Shown here: positions 1 through 47,344 of the stretch, one piece after another | Numbering within the stretch: the stretch's first letter is position 1 | Layout of the letters: each line of letters begins with the position of its first letter | The notes under the pieces: generated by a model | What the model was told of the DNA's origin: nothing | Database searches by the model: none | What the model saw: only the letters and a program-made list of their open reading frames with translations | Origin: a virus | IMG/VR virus record: IMGVR_UViG_3300025687_000001 | Coordinates: 96,862 to 160,861 of that record | DNA length: 64,000 nucleotides | Direction: 5' to 3' (one strand) | Position numbers and translations under genes: made by a program

Positions 1-3000
1 TCTCAGCTAGCCCTCGGTGCTTTTTTAGGTCCTGTAGCGCGTAGGCGTTAGCCATGGTCTCGTCACGCAGAACCCGAAGCGCTCCCTTGAGAGTGTCCCT
101 CTTAGGCGCTGCGTTCATGTCCGTGCGGATAGCCGCCCGAATCTGATCATCCAGCGTTAGAGCCCCAGACCTGCGGGCTCGATTTTCAAAATCTCGAGCG
201 TGTCCTAGCTCGTGCGCCAGGAACTCCGGGGTGTGCGCCTGCACTGCCTGCCTACGCGAGTAGTCGTAAGTCGGAGACTCAACCCCCCGGTTCATGGGAT
301 GGTTGCGATCTGCCGTAACCCCGAATCCCCCTTCGGGGCTCACATGTACCAGCCCTCTATCGTTGATGATCTTGCGACCGAAGTCCTGCATGTCAGCTTC
401 GACCTTGGCCTTAGCCTGATCTAAGCTGAACCCTTCGGCCATGATGTCCCGAAGGCGCTTATCGCCGTACTCATTGATCTGCTTGCGGTAGTTGTTTACC
501 GCAGCCATGCTGAGTGGCTTGTGAAGGAAGGGCACGGCCCCTGCTGCGCCTAACCCAAGCCCTGCAGCTACCTCGGGTACAGAGACGTCTTCCGGGTTTA
601 CCTTGGACAGGCCGTAAATAGCTCCAGCACCGCCCAGACCGATGGCTCCGCGAGCGATGTTAGGCGCGTGCCGCAGCAACTTGTCTCGTCGCAGCGCAGA
701 TCGCTGCTGCTTTGCTACCTCAGCAATCGCGTCTTCTGTGGACATGCCGGCTGCGCGCAAATCACGAACAGCACGCGCCTTAGCTTCCTCTGGGTCTGGC
801 GTGTACTCGAGCACCGTCTCCAGGCTGGGGTCGCTGGCAATGTCTCTAGGCAACAGGGAGCTGAGGCTCTTGTTCTGCCGAGCCTTGGACGCCGGGTCCA
901 TAGTCCCACCAGGAAGAACTGTGCAAACCCCCCCGGCGCACCGAACCTCCTCGCCTAGTTGACTAGGAGTCTTAGGCTGCTTGTTGGTAAGCTTCCCCCA
1001 CAGCTTAGCAACGGGGTCTGGCACCAAGATTTCTCGCAGCCCACTCTTGACAGACTTGCCTACGCTGTACGTCGGAGCATCTCCGTGCTGGCCGTACATA
1101 GACTGTAGGAACTTAGCTCGGTCCTGCTCCCCTGTCAGGGACGCCATGGCCGGGTCTTTGTGCCGTAGGATCCGCACTCGGCGCTCAGGATTGATACCCG
1201 CGTCACCTATGTCACTCATGACATGGCGTCGATCTGGCGCAATGTCCAGAACCTTGCCGGGTCCCCACCCCACGTTAGCGTGGGTATAGTCAGCAGACCC
1301 TTGAGTCGCCGCCACTAGATTGCGGATAGGGTCACCTTTGTCAGACCCCGAGAGGACGATATCGCCTGGCTTCAAGTTAGCCGTTATGTAGTCAAAGTTG
1401 TGGGTGCTGGTACCCGGCGTGTGCAGCGGAGCCCGACGATTAGTAAGCGCAGTAACCGCAGGCACCCCCGCCGCTACCCCCATGAGGGAGTTGCGTAGCG
1501 CGTGGGACTCCTCATCTTGCTGCCAGGGCAAGGCAGCACCCGTCTTCTCCCCCTCGCGACCTTTGCTGTACTGAACCCCTGCTCCGATGCCACCAATGCC
1601 CGCGCCGATACCTAGTTGCGCCAAGAAGGTGTTATACCCAGACTGCGCTGCGGGCTGCATAGCCCTAGCCACTTCAGGTGGGAGGTGCCCTTTGTCTAAC
1701 TGCTGAAGAGGAGTCAAGGCGGACATGTCCCCCGCCTCAATAGCCTCCCGGACTTTCCTTGAGGCACTGGGAGTACCGAGGTTTCCGCCAGTCTCCATCA
1801 CAGTAGACACTGGCGTCTGCCCAGTAATGAACTCCAGAGAGTCCTTCTCCGGCCGTGTAAGCTTACGACTGTAGCCTTTAGGAGCGCGAGCTGCTTCATC
1901 CAACAGCTTAGTAGCCCGTCTCCCATGATAAACTCCTCGGAAGGGCATAGCAGCGCCCTCCAGGAAACCGCGCCCGAGACCCCGCCAACCCCCCTTAGCT
2001 CCACCCTTGAAACCCTCGATGAGCCCAGTCACCATGCTAGGGACCAACAACCCGCCTCCCGCTAATCCTCCAGCAATGCCCACGCCCTGCTTGAGGTTAT
2101 GCTCTCCCTCAGAGATACCTGCCCGCTGGTTACGTGCCCCATACTCAGACGTCCAGACGCCAAAGGGGCCCAGACCCGCAGCAAAGTCCTGTCCTAGATT
2201 GGTAGGCTTCTCGGACTTCCAGAACGCACTCGTCTTTACGCGCGTAAGCAGCCACTTCCCGTCCTTCGTACGCAGCAGCCGCATCTTTCCCTGGTCAGGC
2301 ACATCGAACTCCACTTTACCTGGCGCAGACGACACCATAGTGTCCGCGTCAAGTATAGCGTCAACCTTGCCTGCCCCGTACGTTCCCTCCGGGATTTCCC
2401 CCGACCACCCCGCGTAGTCCGCTGTGTGGGTAGGCTGAAGCAAAGCAAGCAGCTTCTGTCGCTTCTCGTCGGGCCACTGAGCTCGAGGCACCGCCCAAGA
2501 GTGAGCACGGCTGGTCTCCGGATCAACCAGGCGAAGGTCCCAGTGCTTTCCCGCGCGGTTTGCGTTGTGGAGCTGGGTGGTTAGGCGCCAGTTGGCGTCT
2601 TGGACCTCTGGGATTGGGTGGATTTGGCGGGAGGCGGGGATGCCTGGGGCGAATTCTTCGGAGGACTGCTTCTTCCGAAACCAATTGCCCCCACCCCACC
2701 GATCTTCATAGTCGCCCTCCTCGAAACCCGCTGCAAGGAACGCCTTCCGAGAAGGCTCGTTGCTCGTCTCAATGAACGCAATGCCGTCCCCATGTTTTGC
2801 GACGTGCTCCCGGATGGCCTGCGCGGCCAAGCCCTTCCCTCGGTGCTCCGGCTGAACGTAGATGGCGCCCACCCGGTGCATCCCCGAACCCCTGGACTGG
2901 CGCGGAGTGTGGAACCCCACGATCTCACCATCGACTGTGATTGGAACCCGAACTCTATCCTTGTCCCTGGGGCGTACGTACCCGCGTAGATAAGGCTCCT

Positions 3001-5116
3001 GATTAGCCTCGAGGAGGAGTTTGTAAGGGATACCGGGGGCGAATTCCCCCTGCGGTAACCCTGCCTCCTCCGAGAACTTCTTCAGCTCAGACCTAGCCCA
3101 TGGTGATTCGACTACGTCGTAGTGTCCGCGAAGCTTATCCGCCAGGGTGGTCTTACCAGCGGCCACGTCCCCCATGAGGAAGTTGATCTCGGAGGTCTTA
3201 GTCCGGAGAAGCTCCGCAAAAGGGGCTCCACCAACAGTTCGTACCGCGAAGGCAGGGTTGCCCTGAACATCCCTAGCGGGGCGAACTCGGTACTCCCCCA
3301 AAGGGGCCTCTAGCTCCCGTCTGAATAGAGGCACCTCATACGTAGGGTTCCTAGTGCTAACAACGCTAGTAGGGTCCGCCGTCCTGTTTGAGTCGCGGAC
3401 AAACCTTTCGTAATAGGGTCGATCCCATAAATCAGAGGCCTTGGTTACTGCGTGACTGTGCACCTCCGGGTAACTACCCGCCGCACCAGACCTGGAATAC
3501 GCAAACAACTTACCATCTACAGGTGCCCAGGATGGCTCCCCCACAATTCCAGTGGCATACCCCGCCGCTACGTCCGGGTGTCGAGTAGTGAAGACCAACT
3601 TACCGCCCTCTTCCGGCAGAGCATTGCCCCTGAAGAGCACGTCAGTAGGGCTGCTAGGGTTAGCTAAGATCTCAGCGGACCCTGTACTGGGCAGCAACAC
3701 CTCGTCCGCTGCCGGCAAGTGCTTCCCCTTAGCTCGCTCCCGAATAGAGTCAGTAGCTGCCGCTATGTCCCTACGCACTTGATAGGCAGGCTTGCTTCCA
3801 CTCCATGCATGCGCGCGATAAAGCTCTCTTGCGGCAGAGTCAGCTCTGGCACCTACCCGCCTGCGTTGCGCGTTACCCTCGATTAGCTCGTCTACAACAT
3901 CCCCGGCCCCCCGGCCCGGCTTACCGCTCTCTGGAACACCAAACCGCCTTTCTAGCGCGCCATACCAGTCCTTGCGCTCCTGCCTAGTAGTAGGGTTCAA
4001 CAAGTCCGCTATAGCGGCGTTGGACTTAGGCCCCACATCAGGCCCAGCCGCATGGAGGCGCTTGATCTCCTTAGTAATCCCCGGTCGGACCTCTTCTAAT
4101 AGAGCTAGTGCTTGTCTGGTGCTTGCTCGCGCAGCGTACTTGCTAATAGGAGCCGAGGAGCTCTTCTTAAACTCCCTCCACCTCTCCAACTCCTCCCTCA
4201 AACTCTCCGGCACCCCGCCCTCACGCCCAATACGCGCGTAGATCTCATCCAGGTCAGTAATGCTCGGCTCGCCCTCACGGTGAAGGCCGTACCTATTGAA
4301 CGTGTAGCCCTTCTCTTTAGCTAGGCGCTTGTCGTGGATGATGCCCTTGCCCCGAAGCCACTGAGCTAGCGCGGGCTCGAAGTGTTCCTCAGTGGTCTTG
4401 AAGACATCTACGCCAGGCTGCTTGGGCAGGTCAGTGACCCCCTCCTTAGGGACCACCAGGAGGTCAAGGTCTTTTGGGTCGGGGTGGCCCCTCCCGGTGG
4501 AGCCTACAGTAGCCTGGTAGCGAATTTGGTCTGCTAGGGACTCTGGGGCCGCACCACTCTGCTTAGGAAACAGCGAAGTATACCCAGACCTAAAAACCTC
4601 GGGCAGCGACCCCACGGTGGCCCCCGCCCCCGCCCCACCAAGAAGCGCGATCAGCTTGTGCTTGGGGAGCAGCTTTGTGAAGCCCTTGTTGGGGTGAGCT
4701 GCTTCCCAAATTGCGCCAGACAACGCCCCTGCTGCCGGCGCTACCCCTAGGGCTCGGTCCGTTAGCGTCGGCTCCTGCGATCCCGTGTTCCAGAACGCTT
4801 TCTTCTCCTCCTGCCCGCCAAACAGCGCCCGCACCGCCAAAGCTTCCTCGTCGCTGTACCCGCGCTCGGACCCCTTGTGAGCTCCGCCTACCCAGAGCCT
4901 GTCAGGGTAGAGATGAACCTGCCCCCGCTCAGTGTGCAGTCCGTAGTGCGGGCCGCGCTTGGACTCTCCGAAGTGCGCTCGAGGACCGAACTTGAGATGC
5001 ACCGGTTCGTACTTAGAGCCAGGGCTCCGCTTAGCCGCGCGCTTCTTCTTGAGGCGCTCGATTTCCGCTATGAACTGTAGGAGCTCGTTCTGAGTCGGGG
5101 TACCTTGGTCGTTCAC
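1..5116 (-). CDS. Giant multidomain 'polyvalent' phage protein, partial (C-terminus beyond window)
   Basis: The minus strand is open from a GTG at 5116 to the window edge, about 1,705 residues with no stop seen. Domains read in order: Pol-beta/MNT-type nucleotidyltransferase signature at residues 203-222 (GS then DLDLLV); a segment near 490-546 (LFRG, VAAGYA) weakly recalling ADP-ribosyltransferases; Walker A GDVAAGKTT at 649-658; GNAT acetyltransferase with HRGKGLA near 755; LigD-type 3'-phosphoesterase at 843-968 (HWDLRL with His858, SWAVP, GEIPEG, YGAG); glycine-rich membrane-like stretches; a permuted NlpC/P60-like fold at about 1247-1400 (GDIVLSG, YTHANVG, Cys in RCAGGVC); a HELGH zinc-peptidase motif at 1635-1639. 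This mosaic fits the phage polyvalent-protein class, thought to be carried in the virion and injected with DNA. Delivery and activity are inference. Confidence 0.85.
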   Translation of the reverse strand, partial: MNDQGTPTQNELLQFIAEIERLKKKRAAKRSPGSKYEPVHLKFGPRAHFGESKRGPHYGLHTERGQVHLYPDRLWVGGAHKGSERGYSDEEALAVRALFGGQEEKKAFWNTGSQEPTLTDRALGVAPAAGALSGAIWEAAHPNKGFTKLLPKHKLIALLGGAGAGATVGSLPEVFRSGYTSLFPKQSGAAPESLADQIRYQATVGSTGRGHPDPKDLDLLVVPKEGVTDLPKQPGVDVFKTTEEHFEPALAQWLRGKGIIHDKRLAKEKGYTFNRYGLHREGEPSITDLDEIYARIGREGGVPESLREELERWREFKKSSSAPISKYAARASTRQALALLEEVRPGITKEIKRLHAAGPDVGPKSNAAIADLLNPTTRQERKDWYGALERRFGVPESGKPGRGAGDVVDELIEGNAQRRRVGARADSAARELYRAHAWSGSKPAYQVRRDIAAATDSIRERAKGKHLPAADEVLLPSTGSAEILANPSSPTDVLFRGNALPEEGGKLVFTTRHPDVAAGYATGIVGEPSWAPVDGKLFAYSRSGAAGSYPEVHSHAVTKASDLWDRPYYERFVRDSNRTADPTSVVSTRNPTYEVPLFRRELEAPLGEYRVRPARDVQGNPAFAVRTVGGAPFAELLRTKTSEINFLMGDVAAGKTTLADKLRGHYDVVESPWARSELKKFSEEAGLPQGEFAPGIPYKLLLEANQEPYLRGYVRPRDKDRVRVPITVDGEIVGFHTPRQSRGSGMHRVGAIYVQPEHRGKGLAAQAIREHVAKHGDGIAFIETSNEPSRKAFLAAGFEEGDYEDRWGGGNWFRKKQSSEEFAPGIPASRQIHPIPEVQDANWRLTTQLHNANRAGKHWDLRLVDPETSRAHSWAVPRAQWPDEKRQKLLALLQPTHTADYAGWSGEIPEGTYGAGKVDAILDADTMVSSAPGKVEFDVPDQGKMRLLRTKDGKWLLTRVKTSAFWKSEKPTNLGQDFAAGLGPFGVWTSEYGARNQRAGISEGEHNLKQGVGIAGGLAGGGLLVPSMVTGLIEGFKGGAKGGWRGLGRGFLEGAAMPFRGVYHGRRATKLLDEAARAPKGYSRKLTRPEKDSLEFITGQTPVSTVMETGGNLGTPSASRKVREAIEAGDMSALTPLQQLDKGHLPPEVARAMQPAAQSGYNTFLAQLGIGAGIGGIGAGVQYSKGREGEKTGAALPWQQDEESHALRNSLMGVAAGVPAVTALTNRRAPLHTPGTSTHNFDYITANLKPGDIVLSGSDKGDPIRNLVAATQGSADYTHANVGWGPGKVLDIAPDRRHVMSDIGDAGINPERRVRILRHKDPAMASLTGEQDRAKFLQSMYGQHGDAPTYSVGKSVKSGLREILVPDPVAKLWGKLTNKQPKTPSQLGEEVRCAGGVCTVLPGGTMDPASKARQNKSLSSLLPRDIASDPSLETVLEYTPDPEEAKARAVRDLRAAGMSTEDAIAEVAKQQRSALRRDKLLRHAPNIARGAIGLGGAGAIYGLSKVNPEDVSVPEVAAGLGLGAAGAVPFLHKPLSMAAVNNYRKQINEYGDKRLRDIMAEGFSLDQAKAKVEADMQDFGRKIINDRGLVHVSPEGGFGVTADRNHPMNRGVESPTYDYSRRQAVQAHTPEFLAHELGHARDFENRARRSGALTLDDQIRAAIRTDMNAAPKRDTLKGALRVLRDETMANAYALQDLKKHRGLAE

Positions 5117-5147
5117 GGCTTATCAGCCCCACATTAAGACTAATTCA

Positions 5148-5157
5148 GTTATAAGAT
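5148..5157 (+). promoter_or_regulatory. ATAAG-type phage promoter box
   Basis: GTTATAAGAT lies 18 nt before the ATG at 5169 and is divergent from the giant minus-strand gene. It is one copy of a box recurring through the window before gene starts. Confidence 0.5.
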
Positions 5158-5168
5158 AATTGACCGAG

Positions 5169-14266: not shown

Positions 14267-14800
14267 ATGAGTAAGATCAACCTCTGCATCCACCTCGTGG
14301 TGGATGGAAAACCTGTTTACAAGACCCAAACCGCTAGCGTCGAAACCACTCGCATGGCCAGCACCGTACTGCAGGTGATGGTCGACGAACTCTTCGCGAG
14401 CTCCGAGGAGTGGGACGACAGCGCTGTCGAGAAGCTGTTGGAGGCCGCGAAGGGGGCGGAGCCTAGCTCCTGCGACCACAGACCTTCTTGGGCCCCAGAC
14501 TTGGGCAAGATGTTCTGTGTGTATTGTGGCATGGCTTGGGACGTGCCAGAAGCCGCGGCGAACACAGAGCCCGCAAAGCCTCGCTACTGCTACACCCCCG
14601 CGGACTCCAGGTTTCACCGGCTGACCGCGGACAAACGCATAGCTTGCACTGGGGTGCCCAACCCCTCCGGCGGAGGCTACGAGGTGGCCTCGGTGTTCGA
14701 AGAATCTCTGTGTACCGAGCCCGAGTGCCGGGAAGGGTGGGAGAAGAAGTCCTGCGAACCACGGTGTGAAGACATCGTCACACATCTGGGGGAGGAGTGA
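14267..14800 (+). CDS. Cys-rich hypothetical protein
   Basis: 177 residues. The N-terminal 60 residues form an alpha/beta domain; the rest carries CDH, CVYCG, CTGVP, CTEPEC and CEPRC clusters typical of one or two zinc knuckles. Preceded by a promoter box; followed by GTG overlap with the next gene. Confidence 0.6.
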   Translation: MSKINLCIHLVVDGKPVYKTQTASVETTRMASTVLQVMVDELFASSEEWDDSAVEKLLEAAKGAEPSSCDHRPSWAPDLGKMFCVYCGMAWDVPEAAANTEPAKPRYCYTPADSRFHRLTADKRIACTGVPNPSGGGYEVASVFEESLCTEPECREGWEKKSCEPRCEDIVTHLGEE

Positions 14801-42150: not shown

Positions 42151-42445
42151 CCACCAAACCGCCCTGCTTGCACTGTCCTTGCACGGCTGGGAGACAGTAG
42201 AGCTCTCCAACGGAGGTAAATACCAACACCGTTTCGTGGGGGGCCAATACTACACGGTTAGCGTGGTCTCCCCGACCGCGCATCCAGGTCTCATGGAAGT
42301 CTTTGTTAGCAGCGCGACTAGGCTGTCTTCGAGGGCCGTTGACCTCGTAGCTCATGCTACGGTCTACAGTATCCCCGAGCTTCTAGGAACCACCGCCAAA
42401 AACCTAGAGGAGCACCGCCAAAAACCTAGAGGAGCACCTACATGA
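42131..42445 (+). CDS. Array-family paralogue outside the main array
   Basis: 104 residues from ATG 42131. HQTALLALSLHGWETVE, YYTVSVVSPTAHPGLMEVFV, and a helix VDLVAHATVY similar to the preceding gene (FVAHAT), so the two are sister copies. A 22-nt tandem duplication forms its tail. Confidence 0.65.
   Translation: MSKTSVDHQTALLALSLHGWETVELSNGGKYQHRFVGGQYYTVSVVSPTAHPGLMEVFVSSATRLSSRAVDLVAHATVYSIPELLGTTAKNLEEHRQKPRGAPT
42391..42434 (+). repeat. 22-nt tandem duplication carrying a ribosome site
   Basis: Two exact copies of a 22-nt unit starting CACCGCCAAAAACC and ending GAGGAG. The second GAGGAG is the ribosome site of the ATG at 42442. Confidence 0.85.
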
Positions 42446-43148: not shown

Positions 43149-43157
43149 GGCATAAGT
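43149..43157 (+). promoter_or_regulatory. AGGCATAAGT promoter box
   Basis: TTCAGGCATAAGTAT with ATAAG at 43152, 8 nt before a 13-codon ATG frame at 43160. A second ATAAG (43208) follows. Confidence 0.5.
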
Positions 43158-43454: not shown

Positions 43455-43496
<42 letters not shown>

Positions 43497-44666: not shown

Positions 44667-44682
44667 GGTCCCTCTGGACCCG
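44667..44682 (+). terminator. Hairpin after the 44205 gene
   Basis: GGGTCC-CTCT-GGACCC starts at the stop codon; no U-run. The following 270 nt to 44940 hold no gene I can support. Confidence 0.4.
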
Positions 44683-44938
44683 TACACGGCGGTTGTACGG
44701 CGTAGAGTGCACATGGCACGGAGGAGAAATTCCGTGTGAGGATGTGCTGAGCCAATTAGCGTTTGGCTCGGAAAAAGAAGGGGTGTACTCGCGTACAGCG
44801 AGAGTTCCCCCAAACGTAGGCGCCCAGGATGGGGGCCGGAGAGAAGAGGCTGTGCGAGTTCTTTGGGCAGAGCGCCTCTGCGGAACAACACCAAGTTCCG
44901 CCTTCTCTTTAGCCGGCACAAACCAGTAAGCCCTTTCG

Positions 44939-44951: not shown

Positions 44952-45290
44952 ATGAGCAAAGTAAAGCTCGCTCCCTCTAGGGGAGCAGAAACCATTAGAC
45001 TCCTCCTCGACGAGGAGTACGGCTACCGCTCCTGGGTGTGGGACAGCGGTATGTCAGCGAAGGAGCTGATCTCCTGGTGGAAGAACCTCCACTCGGTGAT
45101 GATCGGCTTCTTCGACCCCAGGAAGCTGCCCGGAAGCTTCATGGAGATCGAGGACAAGGTCTTCGATCAGTTGGACGTGGACCCGCGTTGGTGGCGGGGG
45201 CACATCCACACGGATGAGGACAGCTTCATCCGTGCGCCGATTGCAGAGGGGCATACCCTGTATCGGCACGCTGGCTACCGGCGGAAATAG
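44952..45290 (+). CDS. Hypothetical protein
   Basis: 112 residues. Trp-rich alpha/beta protein (YRSWVWDSGMSAKELISWWK; DPRWWRGHIHTDED). Single-gene unit between two promoter boxes. Confidence 0.6.
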   Translation: MSKVKLAPSRGAETIRLLLDEEYGYRSWVWDSGMSAKELISWWKNLHSVMIGFFDPRKLPGSFMEIEDKVFDQLDVDPRWWRGHIHTDEDSFIRAPIAEGHTLYRHAGYRRK

Positions 45291-45303
45291 CCTGTCGTAT
45301 CCG

Positions 45304-45312
45304 GGCATAAGT
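45304..45312 (+). promoter_or_regulatory. GGGCATAAGT promoter box before ncRNA candidate
   Basis: CCGGGCATAAGTATG with ATAAG at 45307. No good gene start follows, unlike other copies. Confidence 0.5.
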
Positions 45313-45314
45313 AT

Positions 45315-45708
45315 GTGAATCGCCAGAGCCCCTGGCTGAAACCACCACAGCCCCATGAGGCAACGCAAGGTGATAAACGCCTGCGAAGCCTGCACCTAGT
45401 ACGGCATGGGGTGGCCCGGGGACATGTGCGTAGCGCTGGCAAGGTGGGCACTCCGGTAAAGCTCTAGACCCCCGGATATCGCGGTGATACCCGCGCAGTA
45501 CTCTCAGTACTGGGGAGTTAATGGCAGAACTCCTATTGCTGAGCCCAAAAGGCGAGGCAGAGAGATTCCTAGTTTCGCGCAGTTCTGCCTGAACCAGCTG
45601 CGCCGAACCACGAACAGCGAGAATCCGGGAACACGAGAGGAGCCGCCTGCCGGCGTGACAGGCAGAGACGCGCGGACGCCCTGAGGCCCCAGGGAATAGC
45701 GTCTTTTT
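45315..45708 (+). ncRNA. Candidate structured non-coding RNA, about 390 nt
   Basis: Bounded by a promoter box and a terminator, with no credible protein. Predicted helices: CCCCATG (from 45351) with CATGGGG (from 45404); AGGTG with CACCT inside it; CGCGG/CCGCG near 45480-45495; CAGTACT-CTC-AGTACTG near 45496-45512; GGAGTT/AACTCC near 45514-45533; AGGCAGA/TCTGCCT near 45554-45590; GCCTG/CAGGC near 45645-45663. I find no tmRNA or RNase P signature. Confidence 0.5.
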
Positions 45709-45710
45709 AG
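45674..45710 (+). terminator. Rho-independent terminator of the ncRNA candidate
   Basis: GACGC with GCGTC outside and CCTG with CAGG inside, then TTTTTAG. Confidence 0.7.
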
Positions 45711-45719
45711 CTTTTACCT

Positions 45720-45729
45720 GGCATAAGTA
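45720..45729 (+). promoter_or_regulatory. TGGCATAAGTA promoter box
   Basis: CCTGGCATAAGTAAG, ATAAG at 45723, 13 nt before ATG 45736. The best match to the consensus. Confidence 0.6.
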
Positions 45730-45735
45730 AGCACA

Positions 45736-46143
45736 ATGGGTGACTACATCCCTCTAGAAAACTGCGTAAAAGGGCGCCTCTACAAGCTCCACTCCCGCAA
45801 TCTCGCTGCTGGCGTTTTTGACGGTAAAAGGGGCTTTATTGGCATCCGAGAGAAGTTCGACCAGCGGTACTTGTTCACGGAGTACCACTGGGACAGCCCG
45901 GCGTTTGCAACGGCGAAACCTATAGAAGACCTAGGCGTAGACGTGCCTGAAGACATCCCCGTCCAGGAATCGCTGGGGAGCTTCGACCAGATCACGCAAC
46001 GCCCAACCGCTTTCGACAAGCCTGTCGCAGATGGTGGCAGGGGCTGGTACTTCACCGACACAGGCGAGGCCAGCCGGGACATCAGGTCCTACAGTAAAAG
46101 CAACGAAGAACTCTTCAAGTGGATACAAAGCACCACGTCATAG
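45736..46143 (+). CDS. Hypothetical protein
   Basis: 135 residues. YIPLENCVKGRLYKLHSRNL then GVFDGKRGFIGIREKF, a beta-barrel-like start. No Shine-Dalgarno, so probably a short-leader message. Overlaps the next gene by 25 nt. Confidence 0.65.
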   Translation: MGDYIPLENCVKGRLYKLHSRNLAAGVFDGKRGFIGIREKFDQRYLFTEYHWDSPAFATAKPIEDLGVDVPEDIPVQESLGSFDQITQRPTAFDKPVADGGRGWYFTDTGEASRDIRSYSKSNEELFKWIQSTTS

Positions 46144-46974: not shown

Positions 46975-47295
46975 GTGCGCGCCTTTGTTTCAGCCACCAC
47001 CAACCATCAATGGGGAGGTACAATCTTGGCTCACGGAGCCTGCGAAGACTGTGTGTGCTCGCACGCCGAGTGTGAGTGCCCCACCGTCGTGGAGCACTTC
47101 GACGACTGGGACCCGGCCCGCGCGCGGGTCTTGGTGTCCCAGTTGGCAGGGTGCCCCTTCGAAGACGTCCTGGCCTTCCGGCCGGGGCGAGATGAGATCC
47201 TGGGGCTGCTCGGCAGCTTCAGGGTCAAGACCCGCACCTACTCCGTGGTGCGGACGCAGCGTGGGGTGGCCTGGAGGGGCCGGTCCAAGCTGTGA
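46975..47295 (+). CDS. Small Cys-rich protein
   Basis: 106 residues from GTG 46975; TTG 47026 after GGGGAGG is an attractive alternative (residue 18). CEDCVCSHAECECP is a dense Cys cluster near the N-terminus, the rest is alpha/beta with a basic end. Confidence 0.55.
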   Translation: MRAFVSATTNHQWGGTILAHGACEDCVCSHAECECPTVVEHFDDWDPARARVLVSQLAGCPFEDVLAFRPGRDEILGLLGSFRVKTRTYSVVRTQRGVAWRGRSKL

Positions 47296-47299
47296 GAGT

Positions 47300-47344
47300 C
47301 GGGAGCGCTGCGTAAACCCGCGCGGCGCTCCCGGTTCGTTTTTA
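47300..47344 (+). terminator. Rho-independent terminator
   Basis: CGGGAGCGC and GCGCTCCCG form a perfect 9-bp stem around 16 nt, then GTTCGTTTTTA. Confidence 0.85.

Follow-up and report, generated by a model that had tools for sequence, protein, structure and literature searches.

A putative promoter-terminator unit of about 395 nt with no coding signal in a phage encoding its own RNA polymerase and sigma factor

What is specified by the stretch at 45304-45714, which lies between two small protein genes and was originally put forward as a possible novel structured RNA of about 390 nt? The window analysed here (64,000 nucleotides, bases 96862-160861 of a 160,861-base virus record; G+C 58%) belongs to a genome judged from its genes to be that of a phage, with a DNA polymerase, helicases and 11 tRNA genes. 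The whole record is denoted G000, L009 and L012 are other stretches of it, and G001-G003 are other viral records (L026 is G002). The RNA polymerase encoded by the record is a single chain of 1448 aa that contains NLDYDGDAL, which we take to be a catalytic-type motif, and sigma-70 regions 2 and 4 are found in the frame G000:35094-35702 with scores above the Pfam cut-offs. Among named phages, the most similar polymerases (34-35% identity) are those of Vibrio phages D181, D148 and D69 and Salmonella phage Arash. We favour, with a probability of roughly 0.55, the reading that 45304-45714 is an orphan gene of the phage transcription system, one that specifies an independently transcribed noncoding RNA. 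The features of the locus are collected in Table 1.

Table 1. Features at and around the locus, in window coordinates
Feature	Position	Strand	Basis or remark
Upstream gene	44952..45290	+	112 aa, no known family
-35-like element CGGAAATA	45282..45289	+	6/8 letters of consensus CGCAAATC; overlaps stop of upstream gene
-10 box GGCATAAGTA and conserved start region TGTGAA	45304..45319	+	Box counts, weight matrices, 16-letter G002 match
Putative noncoding RNA, about 395 nt	45313..45708	+	No coding signal in any frame, no Rfam match; transcription itself predicted
Predicted hairpin closed by CCCCATG/CATGGGG	45349..45411	+	Best-folding part of 5' half
Predicted hairpin with perfect 9-bp closing helix GGCAGAACT/AGTTCTGCC	45523..45589	+	z -2.55, piece chosen afterwards
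Alternative long-range helix CGCGCAGTTCTGCCTG/CAGGCAGAGACGCGCG	45576..45674	+	Excludes the 45523..45589 hairpin
Intrinsic terminator, branched stem and TTTTT	45665..45708	+	Folding; context TTTTTAGC
Next -10 box GGCATAAGTA	45720..45729	+	Score 16.0, not a seed; private promoter of the 45736 gene
Downstream gene	45736..46143	+	135 aa, phrog_3740-like, function unknown

The promoter box predicted at 45304 is borne out by counts and by weight matrices. The sequence GGCATAAG has six copies in the window compared with a shuffle mean of 1.59, and none of 100 shuffles reaches six; GGCATAAGTA also has six copies in the whole record, every one on the plus strand. The second element, CGCAAATC, stands at one fixed upstream distance in four of the strongest sites. 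The family consensus, about CGCAAATC-n16-GGCATAAGTA-nnTGA, is common to G000 and two related phages (G002 and G003). The weight matrix was built from 20 sites with the site at 45306 among the seeds; with this site left out it still scores 17.4 bits, a value as high being found at 8 of 321,220 record positions and nowhere in the reversed control. Above 10 bits the 20-site matrix has 15 matches in G000 and 22 in G002 (2 and 1 in the reversed controls, none of these above 12), and a matrix from the relatives' sites only (14 seeds) gives the 45304 promoter 14.8, against 13.4 for the best control. The -35 part of this promoter is weak: in the leave-one-out score the -10 part with the start region contributes 20.1 bits and the -35 part -0.5 bits. 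The spacing of the -35-like element to the -10 box is identical at 43151, 44194, 46948 and L009:4782. Transcription would be expected to start near 45313-45318. The private promoters claimed for the neighbouring genes are also present (43151, 44194, 44941, 45722 and 46948).

When viral contigs are scanned for both boxes in combination, three records emerge, all of which encode a relative of the RNA polymerase (G001 100%, G003 64% and G002 53% identity). In G002 the promoter is repeated before many small genes, with the conserved start region nnTGA, and an unchanged copy of the 16 letters of 45304-45319 (G002:111031-111046) stands ahead of a different gene, whose ATG follows the box at a distance of 46 nt. 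Because these same letters precede a gene that starts further on, GTG 45315 falls within the conserved start region and was rejected as a start codon. Salmonella phage Arash has a single matrix match of 13.5 bits, which was not counted as the same promoter. Within the record, a promoter of the family at L012:14427 precedes the tRNA-Thr gene at 14458, and the family may therefore serve RNA genes too. Most such promoters precede protein genes, however, and those G002 units that were read hold proteins, which counts against a noncoding gene at 45304.

This two-part promoter occurs in a phage with a sigma-70 homologue as well as a single-chain RNA polymerase, and we infer that polymerase, sigma factor and promoter family act together. 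In the available excerpt of PMC7598289, phiKZ and AR9 are described as having their own multisubunit RNA polymerases and a phage-specific promoter motif near -10, and jumbo phages without polymerases of their own are those that usually encode sigma homologues. G000 resembles the phages of that excerpt in having a phage-encoded polymerase and a phage-specific motif near -10, but its polymerase is one chain, a sigma-70 homologue is also encoded and the promoter has two parts. The promoter family, paired with the phage polymerase and sigma factor, is a more solid product of this analysis than the RNA itself, and it makes the transcription units of related uncultured phages predictable.

The terminator that was predicted to close the unit is present. 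Its stem (45665-45705, or GACGC 45675-45679 with GCGTC 45699-45703) is followed by T at 45704-45708, folds at -18.3 kcal/mol alone and leads into the same TTTTTAG tail that follows neighbouring genes. It is absent from the output of a simple terminator scan, its loop being branched. The tail T[TC]TTTAG precedes 4 of 12 promoters in G000 and 9 of 19 in G002 by no more than 150 bases (background rates per 150 bases, 0.025 and 0.096, respectively); many units are therefore divided by a terminator plus a promoter, and many small G002 genes have a private promoter and terminator.

The terminator ends 27 bases upstream of ATG 45736, so the stretch might alternatively be an attenuated leader, in which a transcript from 45306 enters the 45736 gene unless stopped at 45665-45708. 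Two mutually exclusive predicted helices that adjoin the terminator (45523-45531/45581-45589 and 45576-45591/45659-45674) could then control read-through. We consider this quite improbable, as the 45736 gene has a -10 box of its own at 45720, a stem as good as the alternative helix arises in 16% of 300 core shuffles and no riboswitch family of Rfam matches.

No credible protein had been seen in the stretch, and the codon scores agree. The seven ORFs of at least 30 aa that touch it score from -36.7 to 1.1 bits, compared with 22.2 to 50.7 for four flanking genes; the 50-codon frame at 45315 has a score of -8.7, and a 90-nt sliding codon scan finds no coding frame across 45304-45714. For the two longer frames, PHROG gives no match up to E 0.1, and nothing in Pfam scores better than E 0.13. 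Also rejected were a frame on the minus strand that stays open across the core, because it has no coding score, and a recoded-stop reading of the 5' half, which has no family match. The codon model does undercall: it misses real small genes (for example 47026-47296, at 0.07 bits per codon), and some gaps that it leaves in G002 are real small genes when read.

The unit might instead be the message of a tiny peptide, such as that of the 23-codon frame whose ATG follows GGGGAGTTA near 45520. This reading has in its favour the purine-rich stretch before that ATG and the small genes with poor codon scores nearby. It is nevertheless distinctly improbable, given negative codon scores in the region of the frame, a spacing of just 3 nt and the greater part of the 395-nt unit that it leaves unexplained. 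Because the promoter family, the terminator, the separate box of the next gene and the lack of any coding-like frame can all be read directly from the DNA, the stretch is likely to be an independent, noncoding transcription unit of about 395 nt, in keeping with the original view of it as a transcription unit of its own without a protein.

The proposed structure fared differently. The predicted fold of all 403 nt has an energy of -162.3 kcal/mol (z -2.56, range -2.6 to -2.7), and none of 100 shuffles is as low. This energy is not specific and owes much to the terminator, because z is -1.69 without the terminator and the mean for 60 pieces taken at random from the window is -1.3 (sd 2.0). When pairs may span at most 80 bases, the core folds no better than chance or the genome background (z -0.91; complementary strand -1.13; a value this low in 46% of 37 sense pieces of genes). 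The best core helix is matched in 16-17% of shuffles, as are the best six together. The piece 45318-45425, which was chosen afterwards, folds at z -2.45. At least seven helices can indeed be drawn, as had been claimed, but not beyond chance; drawable helices, as in any G+C-rich sequence this long, are by themselves no sign of a structured RNA. What stands of the novel structured RNA is the architecture of a noncoding unit of its own, and what does not is local folding above chance. A structured RNA class is possible and unproven, with little beyond that architecture pointing to it. That the unit represents a new class of phage noncoding RNA (about 395 nt, several hairpin domains, made by a sigma-dependent phage polymerase and so far known from one record only) is in our view unlikely; such an RNA would possibly have two exclusive predicted folds around 45581-45589.

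Relatives of the unit were sought by several routes. A cmscan of the window with all 4227 families of Rfam 15 gives no match at gathering score; up to E = 5 only snoU54 and snoU83B appear (E 2.6 and 3.5, chance), far below gathering and outside the unit at 44714-44757 and 44835-44917, so that no family is found inside the unit by the Rfam/Infernal search suggested for it. ARAGORN finds no tRNA or tmRNA gene in the window. Blastn, run both with 45000-46000 and with just the unit, yields one chance-level match (29 letters, E 1) in 50,697 phage records and nothing beyond chance level in 72,556 plasmids. DNA searches of nine records that have either the promoter or a gene related to that at 45736, and of 18 records with a related RNA polymerase, return matches of 14-22 letters only. 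The G001 fragment has a polymerase identical letter for letter, yet no match to the 45304-45714 locus. Protein searches for contigs with neighbouring genes find none for the 44952, 47725 and 50060 genes; the 45736 gene has six distant relatives, none with the RNA alongside. The helix-arm pattern occurs in 13 stretches of viral contigs without further similarity, and a 19-letter pattern has three matches in genome contigs, by estimate about the chance number. Two single-sequence covariance models (44 sources; 18 and 19 records, one of these sets containing no record that holds the query) recover the unit itself only. No second copy was found in the record, and an iteron replication origin was rejected, there being no such repeats and no skew switch at 45 kb. 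The parts of the literature that were searchable contain no report of this RNA. With no homologue anywhere searched, nothing points to selection acting on an RNA.

The length of the unit is within the range of some known large RNAs. That it is a diverged member of one of these (RNase P, tmRNA, 6S, group I intron, GOLLD, ROOL or OLE) is scarcely credible when none of the 4227 Rfam families reaches gathering and ARAGORN is negative. The comparison with GOLLD and ROOL as precedents is not supported. In the excerpt of PMC12286853, these are noncoding, phage-encoded RNAs of several hundred nt, often near tRNA islands, and many GOLLD members exceed 800 nt. The candidate RNA is likewise noncoding, phage-encoded and several hundred nt long; on the excerpt's figures, however, it is shorter than GOLLD, it lies about 48 kb from the 11 tRNA genes (L012:11438-14531), and it has neither an Rfam match up to E 5 nor structure beyond chance.

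The main rival of a noncoding RNA gene is a relic cassette. On this reading the small genes of the region occupy cassettes that come and go, and the one at 45304-45714 kept its promoter and terminator while its ORF degenerated or gave way to sequence with no function, any RNA being functionless. The promoter-gene-terminator layout around the unit and in G002 fits such a history, as does the lack of a homologue and of a structural signal. No frame retains a remnant of codon bias, though, the frames read have no family match, and the -10 part of the promoter and the terminator appear intact; we regard a relic as a serious but somewhat unlikely explanation.

Phage-encoded regulatory small RNAs are known as a general kind, and the unit resembles them as a promoter-terminator unit without an ORF inside a phage genome; it differs in having no homologue among the sequences searched. 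A noncoding gene, which we prefer, has against it folding and helices at chance, the want of a homologue, the weak -35 part and a codon model that misses some small genes. In our best reading, the gene would yield a phage-specific noncoding RNA that evolves quickly; its function is presumed, as are its transcription and the polymerase involved. In outline, a sigma-70-type phage factor, most likely partnered by the single-chain polymerase that the phage encodes, would direct initiation a few bases past the GGCATAAGTA box; about 395 nt would be read, with a stop at the branched terminator 45665-45708, so that neither neighbour would be co-transcribed. The untranslated RNA would most likely act in trans during infection, perhaps as a regulator or decoy that binds a host or phage component, a mode of action that is a guess. 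Should transcription occur, the phage, which has a polymerase and a sigma factor of its own, would be making an untranslated RNA, and the unit would offer a way into the search for phage RNAs through orphan promoters instead of homology.

Several other stretches of the record were noted in passing. At L012:1644-1952, some 300 nt with no called gene (z -4.96, centroid energy near the minimum) lie between a 31.7-bit promoter and a small gene, read by eye, at about 1953; among 16 records only G001 has this stretch (identical), and it has no match in phages. It is a candidate leader or RNA and folds better than 45304-45714. In the window, about 240 nt at 44667-44910, after the 44205 gene, are apparently untranslated and have a terminator at the end (z -3.2, helices not above chance). 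The gap between converging genes at L009:7236-7794 has z -9.2 over its first 450 bases, probably from long terminator hairpins. A 5-kb gap at window 1-5159 was dropped as a noncoding candidate, since open-ended frames occur there. The small gene within window 47026-47337, missed by the codon model, has a TTG start after GGGGAGG and, downstream, a long terminator hairpin with TTTTTAG. About 20 CA repeats (window about 43456-43496) stand just before the ribosome-binding site of the 43509 gene and may form a slippage-variable leader, and at 42398-42441 a short tandem duplication (ACCGCCAAAAACCTAGAGGAGC twice) lies at the end of a small gene.
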